A DNA stretch of 64,000 bases from Thalassomonas sp. RHCl1 (GTDB taxonomy: Bacteria; Pseudomonadota; Gammaproteobacteria; Enterobacterales; Alteromonadaceae): positions 1,054,001 through 1,118,000 of the forward strand of contig NZ_CANDNZ010000001.1 of the NCBI RefSeq assembly GCF_947387555.1. The letters run 5' to 3'. Within the stretch, counting starts at the first letter, position 1, and the number at the start of each line of letters is the position of its first letter. Under the pieces are notes generated by a model. That model ran no database searches and was not told the DNA's origin. It saw nothing but the letters and a program-made list of their open reading frames with translations. A program made the translations under genes and the position numbers. Below are positions 43,580-48,065 of this stretch, piece after piece.

Positions 43580-43750
43580 TTAAAACAGACAATAACGGGC
43601 CACGAGTTGACAACCGTAGGTATTACCAGCTTCACACATGTTTTCATATACCAGACACTGTTCCGGACCCGGGTAGCTAACGGCTGAAACCGAAACGCTG
43701 ATGCCCATACTTATTGCTAACAGTGCCATTTTTACGCGAGAGTTTTTCAT
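43580..43750 (-). CDS. Small secreted four-cysteine peptide
   Basis: This is a 56-aa ORF. It starts MKNSRVKMALLAISMGISVS, a clear signal peptide with a likely cleavage after VSA (residue 23). The mature part of about 33 residues has Cys at 32, 39, 47 and 54, enough for two disulphides, and ends ARYCLF. AGGA is 6 nt from the ATG. No family is recognised. It stands alone next to repeat elements. It could be a toxin, a signal or a remnant; the good start site and signal peptide argue that it is real. Confidence 0.65.
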   Translation of the reverse strand: MKNSRVKMALLAISMGISVSVSAVSYPGPEQCLVYENMCEAGNTYGCQLVARYCLF

Positions 43751-44861: not shown

Positions 44862-45125
44862 TTAGCTTGCCTGCTTAGGTGTGATGATTAGCTCATCTTG
44901 ATTTACCCTAATACTGATCTTTTGCCCATTGGTAAAACCGGCCAGTTTAAGCCATTTCCCCCTGAGCACAATGCAAGGTTCAAGCTTTACCGGCACATAG
45001 TTAATACCTATGCCACGGGTTTTCGAAGCCGTACAACAAACGGTTTCCTGCACGGTAAGTTGCCGATAAATGGGATATTTTACTTTTGCCGAGCCTGGCT
45101 CTGACGTATGATGACATTCAGCCAT
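44862..45125 (-). CDS. symE: SymE-like type I toxin
   Basis: This 87-aa protein has a C-terminal SymE domain (PCIVLRGKWLKLAGF, then IRVNQDELIIT), an AbrB-like fold. E. coli SymE is an SOS-induced toxin, recently viewed as a nucleoid- or RNA-acting protein, held in check by the antisense RNA SymR. The N-terminal half is Cys/Thr-rich and not conserved. The region upstream on the opposite strand is structured and ends in a strong terminator, which fits an antisense RNA. No clear LexA box was found. Confidence 0.75.
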   Translation of the reverse strand: MAECHHTSEPGSAKVKYPIYRQLTVQETVCCTASKTRGIGINYVPVKLEPCIVLRGKWLKLAGFTNGQKISIRVNQDELIITPKQAS

Positions 45126-45435: not shown

Positions 45436-46227
45436 TTAAGGTGCCCGAAGCAGGCCTTGTTCTATCCAGGCGGATAGGTAGTTCAGGGCGACCGTGGTGA
45501 CATCGGTGCTATCATTTGTGCTGCCGTTATGGCGCTCTAGCAAGTAATCACATAAGGCGCTGAAATCTTCCCCCGCCAGTATCATCTGAAATAAACCGGC
45601 TTCTTCTTCTGATATTGAACGAAACTCTGTCAGCTTATCCCGGTTGCGCCACAGCAGCCAGCAGCTGTTGTGTTCCCTGGCTGGTTCGGGGGCCTGCTCT
45701 GTTTTTAATGCCTGCCAGCTTTCGACACTGTTCCAGTGCATAAAGGTAAGCTGCACGCTGGGATGAAAATGAAATATCAACGACGGCCATAAATCATGGG
45801 CAATGCTCTGGAGATGCTCAAGGGCAAAGCGGTTAACATCGGCGGCGTCAAAGGCCGTTAACAATAAACGCTCAAAACGGGCAAGTTCGCTTAGCAAGGG
45901 GAAATCGGCAAAGGGGACTTGTGTGGCCAGGAACTCGGGCAAGTTATCGCCGTATTGGCGTAAACTGGTGTAACGGGAGGGATAGAGGTCAATATAACCG
46001 TCTACCATTTGCTCGAACAATTCGTCGCCAAGGTATAAGCCTAAAATCTCATGGTCGGTATCTAAGGTTTCTTTTAGCCGCATCCGGTAGGCATTTTTAT
46101 AGATATTAAGGCGGGTATGATTATCTATGCTTCCCTGGCTGATAATGTTATCGCTGATACTCTCATCATCACAGGTTAAATAATCTATCATCTGCTGCTG
46201 CAGTTTTTCTAAGCGGGTATTTTCCAT
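45436..46227 (-). CDS. bufC: HvfC/BufC-type RiPP partner protein (DUF2063)
   Basis: This is a 263-aa protein. The N-terminal DUF2063 domain (about 1-100) is recognised by LNIYKNAYRMRLKETL and LYPSRYTSLRQYGDNLPEFL. The family acts with MNIO (DUF692) enzymes, probably by presenting the precursor peptide to the maturase. It starts 2 bp after the stop of the maturase gene, so it is translationally coupled to it. Confidence 0.88.
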   Translation of the reverse strand: MENTRLEKLQQQMIDYLTCDDESISDNIISQGSIDNHTRLNIYKNAYRMRLKETLDTDHEILGLYLGDELFEQMVDGYIDLYPSRYTSLRQYGDNLPEFLATQVPFADFPLLSELARFERLLLTAFDAADVNRFALEHLQSIAHDLWPSLIFHFHPSVQLTFMHWNSVESWQALKTEQAPEPAREHNSCWLLWRNRDKLTEFRSISEEEAGLFQMILAGEDFSALCDYLLERHNGSTNDSTDVTTVALNYLSAWIEQGLLRAP

Positions 46228-46229
46228 GG

Positions 46230-47174
46230 TTATATCGCTTGCTTGCCTTGGGCTATGCCTGTACTTATAGTGTGGTTAAGGGTTTGTGCGGCGATATTGC
46301 GGGCAATATCCAGCTCTGCCATAAGCTCGGCAAGGGGCGGAATATTATCATCGCGCTCTATCATGGTACTGACGTAGCCGAAACGTTGTAATGCCTGGCG
46401 GTATAAATCCCACACCGGATCGGCCACCTCGTGGTCATGGGTGTCGATAACGTAATCGCCGTAATCTGTGTGTCCGGCCAGGTGGAATTGCCTGACCCTG
46501 TCTTTGTCTATGCCGTTAAGATAATCTAGCGGGGCAAAGTTATGATTGCGAGCGCTGACATAGATGTTGTTGATATCAAGCAGCATTAAACAGTCGGCAC
46601 GTTTCACCACTTCGTTGATAAACTGCCATTCGCTCATGTCTGAGTCTTTATAACTCATGTAGCTGGAGACATTTTCTATTAGTATTTGCTGGCCGAGGAA
46701 GTCCTGCACCCGGGAGATGCGATCGGCAACATGCTGTAAGGTTTCTTCGTTATAAGGCAAAGGCAGCAGGTCATGGCTGTTAACTTGTTTGTTGGTAGTC
46801 CAGCACAAATGATCCGAGAGCCATTCTGGCTGAAGTTCATTGGCCAGCACTTTAAGTTTACGCAAATAGTCCATATTCAGGGGCTCGGTAGAGCCGATAG
46901 ACATGGAAACCCCGTGCATTACCATGGGATAGTGTTCACGTATGGCGTGCAAGTAGTGTTTAGGTTTACCGCCGTCTACCATGAAATTTTCCGAAACCAC
47001 TTCAAACCAGTCAAGTGCGGGTTTTTGTTCCAGCACATCCTGGAAGTGATCTGTGCGTAATCCCAGGCCGAAACCGAGAAAGTGCTCTGGTATGCCTTGC
47101 TGACCCTCAGGGGAAGAAGCGGGGGTTAACCCGCCTCCTTTTACTGCATTATTTACCAACTTTGCCCCCGACAT
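46230..47174 (-). CDS. bufB: MNIO-type RiPP maturase (DUF692, BufB/HvfB)
   Basis: This multinuclear non-haem iron oxygenase of about 314 aa has a TIM-barrel fold. Conserved metal-binding His, Asp and Glu appear in VMHGVSMSIGS, SDHLCW, LIENVSSYM, LLDINNIYVS, FHLAGHTDY and DTHDHEV. Relatives oxidise precursor Cys residues to heterocycles such as thiooxazoles. The ATG at 47174 lies inside the precursor gene (26-bp overlap); the open frame extends further upstream but only through precursor sequence. The substrate is almost certainly the Cys-rich peptide encoded just upstream. Confidence 0.9.
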   Translation of the reverse strand: MSGAKLVNNAVKGGGLTPASSPEGQQGIPEHFLGFGLGLRTDHFQDVLEQKPALDWFEVVSENFMVDGGKPKHYLHAIREHYPMVMHGVSMSIGSTEPLNMDYLRKLKVLANELQPEWLSDHLCWTTNKQVNSHDLLPLPYNEETLQHVADRISRVQDFLGQQILIENVSSYMSYKDSDMSEWQFINEVVKRADCLMLLDINNIYVSARNHNFAPLDYLNGIDKDRVRQFHLAGHTDYGDYVIDTHDHEVADPVWDLYRQALQRFGYVSTMIERDDNIPPLAELMAELDIARNIAAQTLNHTISTGIAQGKQAI

Positions 47175-47616
47175 CGTTACATGCCTTCGGTGACATTTTG
47201 ACAAAGCCCTGGCCTTTACAGGATGCCTGGCCTTTACAGGCGTTGTTGGCGGTTTTACAGTCGTTGTGGCCGCCGCAAACATTGACGTTGTAGCAATGGG
47301 CCATATCTGCGGTGGTGACTTTGCCGCGCCAGTCGTCTTTTACTGTGCCGCCGATATCGCCGCAAGACTTGGTGGGCATGGCGACAAAACCGTGGCCTTT
47401 ACAGGATGCCTGGCCTTTACAGGCATTCTCGGCGGTTTTGCAGTCATTATGGCCTGAGCATTTATTCACGCCGTAACAATGGCCCAATTCTGCGGTGTTT
47501 TTTGCCGCATATGAAGAAGAGCCTGATTGGCTGCCGGTTTGTGCGCAGCCCATCATGCCGGCTACGGCCAGGGCTACCGCTGCGCCCTGTAATGTTGTTT
47601 TAGTGTTTGCTTTCAT
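47149..47616 (-). CDS. bufA: Bufferin-like RiPP precursor with two tandem Cys-rich domains
   Basis: This 155-aa protein has an N-terminal export signal (LQGAAVALAVAGMMGC) with a possible lipobox Cys at 24. It is followed by two homologous domains (about 41-91 and 102-152). Each has six cysteines: 47, 53, 59, 66, 72, 85 and 108, 114, 120, 127, 133, 146, an exact shift of 61. The shared block is GHNDCKT-x2-NACKGQASCKG. Peptides of this group are modified by MNIO enzymes and bind metals such as copper in the periplasm; the function here is inferred. GGAGAAAG precedes the ATG. The operon continues with the maturase and DUF2063 genes. Confidence 0.85.
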   Translation of the reverse strand: MKANTKTTLQGAAVALAVAGMMGCAQTGSQSGSSSYAAKNTAELGHCYGVNKCSGHNDCKTAENACKGQASCKGHGFVAMPTKSCGDIGGTVKDDWRGKVTTADMAHCYNVNVCGGHNDCKTANNACKGQASCKGQGFVKMSPKACNDVGGKVGK

Positions 47617-48065
47617 GTCTTTCTCCGGTGTTGAACGATGAATTAACCCTGTTACTGCCTGTTATTTTAATTACAGTGAGTGATAACGCATGTTAGAGAA
47701 AAATAAAGGCCGAGTTATCACAATTTGATCACAAAACGGAACGTTTCCTTCACTTTACTACCGGTCTTTTTATTATCCCGCTTGCCAGATTTACTATAGT
47801 TGACAATTTTTATACTGTCGTTACTGTTTGAAAAATAGGCTTAAAGTTTGTTTTAGTCGTTGCTTGTCCGCTACCGGGCAGGGAAAACAAATATTTGATA
47901 ACAGTAAGCGCCCGCATTCTTCCGGCCTTTTCTTGAATTAACGCCGGGTTTTACTGGATCTCAGGCATGGTTAGGGTACATTAGGCCGGTAACTCTGCTT
48001 TTATACTGCTTGGAAGAGATGTTCAGCAGTGATTTCAATAAGTTTTCAAAAATAAGGGATTGAAC
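47617..48065. other. Divergent intergenic region, buf operon and selD
   Basis: This is about 450 bp without a gene. It must hold promoters for both divergent units. A TTGACA at 47800-47805 with TACTGT 16 bp downstream could serve selD on the plus strand, but the -10 is poor. No CueR-like or Fur-like operator was recognised with confidence. Confidence 0.4.

Follow-up and report, generated by a model that had tools for sequence, protein, structure and literature searches.

The locus analyzed here is a doubled form of the Buf2 type of bufferin operon, a described minority class that is usual among the relatives of this bacterium, and it is very probable that this BufA2-type, 12-Cys operon makes a modified and exported product with two metal-chelating domains. 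Across related loci, the cysteine cores of the two domains vary together within each protein, and one position beyond the cores mostly carries Val in one domain and Ile in the other. The window is the whole stretch of 64,000 nucleotides from Thalassomonas sp. RHCl1 that was analyzed; in its list of open reading frames, three minus-strand genes run in one direction from 47616 down to 45436. The features in window coordinates are as follows.

47149..47616, minus strand: BufA2-type two-domain precursor of 155 aa with 13 Cys (open reading frame and NF050166 profile)
47545..47616, minus strand: putative export signal, residues 1-24, ending in a lipobox-like MMGC (sequence reading and regular expression)
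47362..47478, minus strand: domain 1, C47 to C85, six Cys (cysteine register)
47179..47295, minus strand: domain 2, C108 to C146, six Cys, each at +61 (cysteine register and DNA repeat)
46230..47174, minus strand: BufB-type MNIO maturase (PF05114), with ATG 47174 as a candidate start for its upper end and the stop at 46230
45436..46227, minus strand: DUF2063 partner of 263 aa (PF09836 profile), beginning 2 bp past the MNIO stop
47793..47821, minus strand: tentative promoter-like ACGACA-17-TATAGT upstream of the precursor (sequence scan)

Each of the three genes is matched by its profile, in agreement with the bufferin-type operon that the sequence-only reading had proposed. The precursor scores 138 bits against NCBIfam NF050166 (BufA2; cut-off 60, E = 8.9e-41) in two separate stretches, and both stretches exceed the cut-off individually, so this match is not due to chance. 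The MNIO scores 389.8 bits against NF050167 (BufB; cut-off 310) and 384.3 bits against Pfam PF05114, and only 67.2 bits against the methanobactin MbnB profile TIGR04159, below the cut-off of 325; its DTHD motif is present in the listed rows of one-domain and two-domain loci alike. The third protein scores 65.6 bits against PF09836 (cut-off 27.2) and 44.2 bits against the HvfC profile NF050145, below the cut-off of 142, and corresponds to a PME-type 1 partner in the wording of PMC12452194 (partial text). As for the overlapping or 2-bp junctions that had been described, the 2-bp gap between the MNIO and DUF2063 genes (46228-46229) stands, whereas the overlap of precursor and MNIO is less sure. 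The MNIO open frame spans 46230-47282 on the minus strand, and a start at ATG 47174 gives a 26-bp overlap with the precursor; among three genus relatives, however, a TAG follows the corresponding ATG in the same frame in L007 (G002) and L010 (G001), the frame being open in L009 (G003), and the true MNIO start may thus be a later codon.

The order precursor-MNIO-DUF2063 is kept in 76 of 80 related loci. Among the four others, the locus stops close to the precursor in L117 and L134, while L165 gives only a partial MNIO match and L154 none; L154 (8462 bases) contains a two-domain precursor with no match to MNIO or DUF2063 in the locus, and is possibly a stand-alone precursor gene. A DoxX gene belongs to many, not all, bufferin clusters. 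In a search with one query and no positive control, DoxX had no match in the 80 related loci, and by reading none is present among the open reading frames listed around the window operon. A plasmid search gave 18 records, none of which covers 80% of the query.

The cysteines of domain 1 (C47, C53, C59, C66, C72 and C85) recur in domain 2 as C108, C114, C120, C127, C133 and C146. In the DNA, the precursor contains one direct-repeat family of two 156-nt copies (47159-47314 and 47342-47497) with 77% identity, and their spacing of 183 nt equals 61 codons; the shift of every cysteine by 61 residues is thus borne out in both the protein register and the DNA repeat. The same step is found in 30 of 30 and 79 of 80 two-domain loci, i.e., 109/110, and the remaining locus, L131, has a step of 62 because of one extra residue in its domain 1. 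In L131 (4001-4486), both domains show a one-residue insertion at the same place, with CKGQGGF in each. All 12 domain cysteines are invariant across 63 aligned two-domain proteins, and the linker residues D94, W96 and G98 are partly conserved in this alignment. The AF2 model of the precursor is weak in the cysteine cores (mean pLDDT 64.7, pTM 0.56); a Foldseek search of the PDB with this model gave no match, nor did PDB sequences searched with the precursor profile up to E = 1.

How common the doubled form is was estimated in three overlapping samples that all include the own genome. Counting only genomes over the BufA2 cut-off (any match at E = 0.001: 13, 85 and 62 genomes for relatives, order and phylum, respectively), two domains are present in 9 of 9 genomes from 59 relatives, in 25 of 30 from an order sample of 394 and in 4 of 26 from a phylum sample of 398, and all four of the latter belong to the window's own order. 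For the 22 single-domain genomes of the phylum sample one locus each was counted, further over-cut-off matches being frames of 89 to 151 aa elsewhere. In a contig scan, the best 80 of 230 confirmed loci are all two-domain, which is not a frequency because the ranking was by likeness to a two-domain query. Going by the record names of these 80 loci (Colwellia, Pseudoalteromonas, Shewanella, Marinicella, Neptuniibacter, Marinobacterium, Porticoccus and others), the two-domain form extends beyond a single order and is common in marine Gammaproteobacteria. In the available portion of PMC12452194, Buf2 (formerly "Buf_6/12Cys") has 6 Cys in 90% of cases and 12 Cys in the rest, and one 12-Cys Buf2 is modeled as duplicated domains. 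The earlier statement that most precursors of the family have a single domain is consistent with this 90% and with 22 of 26 genomes in the phylum sample. The doubling itself is not news, and a novel architecture was rejected as an explanation, because the 12-Cys class is already published (PMC12452194, in the part available) and is the usual state in this lineage. The sequence-only reading had named the domain count of homologues beforehand as the test that could refute it, and half of that outcome was found: two domains are the common state in the lineage, but a minority in the family as a whole.

For evolutionary comparisons we used 137 loci, 110 two-domain (from two collections that share some genomes) and 27 single-domain; 129 of them have a long enough MNIO, and 95 proteins kept below 93% identity, 73 of these from two-domain loci, were placed on a BufB tree. 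Architecture needs 2 label changes on this tree. Three single-domain rows (L032-L034) lie inside the two-domain part of the free quick tree, and when all 73 two-domain rows are kept in one group, the resulting tree gains 21.5 log units over the free quick one (p-AU 0.836), so that one origin is not rejected, which does not amount to proof.

For the column tests, L131 was omitted for its step of 62, and the 109 remaining pairs of domain 1 (D1) and domain 2 (D2) were reduced to 48 by dropping those at least 90% alike. D1-D2 identity is higher within proteins (0.784) than between proteins (0.723), and the largest of 20,000 permutations, which ignore relatedness, is 0.745. The excess is greatest from Cys III to GFV (0.867 vs. 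0.747), smaller N-terminal of Cys III (0.842 vs. 0.799) and absent from the C-terminal part (0.578 vs. 0.592). The codons show a similar pattern: at same-residue sites between Cys III and GFV, aligned codons agree more often than do non-aligned codons for the same residue within that protein (difference 0.087, interval 0.043 to 0.132, P = 0.00057, Wilcoxon test), with no clear excess in the N-terminal part (0.037, P = 0.11) or the C-terminal part (0.011, P = 0.57). The longest identical D1-D2 stretch of DNA in the window is 32 bp, compared with a maximum of 31 among 2,256 between-protein pairs, and 25 of the 48 proteins reach the 95th percentile of the between-protein stretch, to which shared codon bias contributes. 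On the tree, D2 is never opposite to D1 in a starred independent pair in any of ten tests of residues in columns 9 to 30, although the number of such pairs is small (2 to 11 for each test) and none of the tests reaches P = 0.05; each of four comparison tests outside the core (columns 7, 36, 39 and 41) has some pairs opposite. It is also evident that the domains are not fully homogenised, as just 3 of the 48 proteins have a D1 closer to its own D2 than to every other D1; the own D2 is the nearest D2 to D1 in 16 of 48. Gene conversion, selection by the shared maturase, or both would explain how the cysteine cores are kept alike, and the excess at synonymous sites favors some gene conversion. No earlier report of concerted evolution of Buf2 domains was found in the literature searched, including PMC12452194 in the part available.

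The likeness of the cores is accompanied by a consistent difference three residues past the last cysteine of each domain (positions 88 and 149 of the window precursor). At this position, 72 of the 110 two-domain loci have Val in D1 and Ile in D2, 27 have the reverse (Ile/Val), 5 have Ile in both, none has Val in both and 6 have other combinations; the window precursor is of the Ile/Val type. The same residue occupies both domains in 2 of 48 proteins, compared with 40% expected, and single-domain proteins mostly have Ala (16/27) or Lys (8/27) there. The distribution of the two arrangements requires 10 changes on the BufB tree, and among 7 starred independent pairs 5 are together, 0 opposite and 2 without difference (P = 0.0625). 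Judging from these sequence patterns, an interface between the domains would explain the reciprocal Val/Ile. We consider it doubtful, as a wider proposal, that the two domains form one coupled asymmetric unit rather than independent sites, in which gene conversion or shared-maturase selection would keep the cores alike and the reciprocal Val/Ile would keep the domains distinct; in such a unit, the Val/Ile residues would perhaps pack at an interface particular to the two-domain, often membrane-anchored form.

These observations bear on two other explanations. The likeness of the cores might come from several independent recent duplications instead of one old duplication kept alike, as long identical DNA stretches between the domains of some proteins would suggest (47 bp in L006 and the 32 bp of the window protein). 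This is very improbable, since the 61-residue step is nearly fixed, the linker residues are partly conserved, the maturases of two-domain loci fit one clade, and a fresh duplication would leave both domains with an identical residue at the Val/Ile position, a state found in 5 of 110 proteins (all Ile/Ile). The duplication looks old and fixed. It could also be argued that a single domain is modified, the other staying unmodified and acting as a spacer or as a module that the maturase recognizes, because the domains differ consistently outside the core, both in the reciprocal Val/Ile and in the lack of excess likeness in columns 34-45; however, the six cysteines of each domain are invariant in the 63 aligned proteins and the two cysteine cores vary together, which makes modification of one domain only quite unlikely. 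Two modified metal sites per chain, as the sequence-only reading had proposed, would be plausible.

The N-terminus of the precursor has a basic and a hydrophobic stretch, as read directly, followed by a 13th cysteine, C24, which was absent from the sequence-only reading and lies in the lipobox-like MMGC. MMGC is not a canonical lipobox; relatives carry LVGC, LMGC (G010) and LAGC (G004), among others. With start codons set by a simple rule, a loose lipobox expression matches 84 of 110 two-domain loci vs. 1 of 27 single-domain loci, and the sole single-domain match, in L037, is far upstream of the likely start and spurious. In the thinned tree set, the motif is present in 55 of 73 two-domain loci. 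If this association of doubling with lipobox-like signals is confirmed, it would suggest anchoring, and not a free periplasmic state, for many two-domain forms. Position +2 after C24 holds Ala, and under the general sorting rule for lipoproteins this would point to the outer membrane. Given the lipobox-like motif at C24, the peptide that had been called periplasmic may need to be corrected to a membrane-anchored lipoprotein. Lipoprotein signals are predicted in about 16% of Buf2 in the accessible text of PMC12452194.

In the mechanism that we propose, the precursor would be synthesized in the cytoplasm, and the MNIO-DUF2063 pair would oxidize core cysteines in domain 1 and domain 2, 5-thiooxazoles being the probable outcome. 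Export of the product would be through Sec, with possible lipidation at C24. The final protein would be anchored in the membrane and would chelate metal, most likely copper, with its two domains. Thiooxazoles, copper, export and lipidation would hold for the window precursor by analogy with the family. According to preliminary results in the available part of PMC12452194, the mass loss per Cys of Caulobacter Buf2 equals that of Buf1, whose thiooxazoles bind copper, and its absorption at 305 nm is likewise shared with Buf1; in PMC13097082 (partial text), products of this kind are classed as captophorins and BufA2B2C2 is modeled. A bufferin-like product that serves another metal or redox stress, not copper, is unlikely. 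For it speak the divergent neighbor genes from 48060 and 49100, which resemble what we take to be selenium genes and not copper genes. The Legionella gig operon responds to both copper and gold (PMC5413113, in part), and PMC12452194, in its accessible sections, counts gig operons among the bufferin gene clusters and takes up other metals and other stresses; on the other side, the preliminary results of the same source indicate a function of Caulobacter Buf2 similar to that of the copper-chelating Buf1.

Several observations concern the surroundings of the operon and the rest of the genome. The region upstream of the precursor (about 47640-47860) is conserved in four genus members, including the GAAACGTTC and TTTTGTGAYCAAATTGTGATAA blocks, and the promoter-like stretch is nearly identical in the four when aligned. 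Such promoter-like sites number 7 in the region vs. 4.9 expected in shuffles, so the site is no evidence on its own, and promoter and terminator scans of the region stay near the shuffled expectation. Downstream of the operon, a small minus-strand open reading frame (44862-45125) matches Pfam SymE_toxin with 47.1 bits (cut-off 29). A 56-aa open reading frame (43580-43750) has an apparent signal sequence, four Cys and no Pfam match. The own genome bears two MNIO loci besides the window operon. The first (L087:2224-4881; G000:C3) is a second bufferin-like operon, with a precursor of 98 aa and four Cys that at 27.9 bits stays below the BufA2 cut-off, an MNIO with 284.7 of 310 bits to BufB, a partner-like gene with 29.1 bits to HvfC and an HvfX/DoxX-like gene with 48.5 of 80 bits; by Cys number and gene order it would be Buf1-like. 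The other (L086:116-2319; G000:C26) contains the third MNIO gene of the genome, which with 230 bits falls short of the BufB cut-off and is preceded by a 219-aa gene without NCBIfam match and an open reading frame that by eye resembles an acetyltransferase.

The locus represents a further case of a widespread metal-protection RiPP. As a test case, precursors of the 12-Cys Buf2 type raise the question of whether a single MNIO complex acts on both six-Cys cores of the same chain, and the natural variation among the concerted cores could serve to map how the substrate is recognized. The closest known system is the 12-Cys Buf2 of PMC12452194, which, as far as its available text goes, shares with the window operon two six-Cys domains, the MNIO and DUF2063 genes and a signal peptide, putative in the window; no essential difference was found, and by reading no DoxX gene is seen in the window operon. 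One of the two Buf2 proteins modeled there is from Cognaticolwellia aestuarii; because the C. aestuarii locus in our set (L108) is two-domain and 70% identical to the window precursor, we infer that the modeled protein is the 12-Cys one. Single-domain Buf2 has the same domain, maturase family and partner, but the domain occurs once, 26 of 27 loci lack a lipobox-like motif, and the Val/Ile position is mostly Ala or Lys. The lipidated MNIO RiPPs DybA and NedA (PMC12636315, partial text) resemble the window precursor in carrying a lipoprotein signal, putative in the window, on an MNIO substrate, and the same source finds such signals in a subset of bufferins as well; unlike the product proposed for the window operon, DybA has a macrocycle and a hydantoin-type heterocycle, and NedA is of the EGKCG oxazolin type. 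The fontiphorin/oxazolin captophorins (PMC13097082, in the part available) likewise combine an MNIO with a DUF2063 partner and bear thiooxazoles on repeated Cys units, although these units are short EGKCG repeats (Lys-Cys group) and not six-Cys domains.
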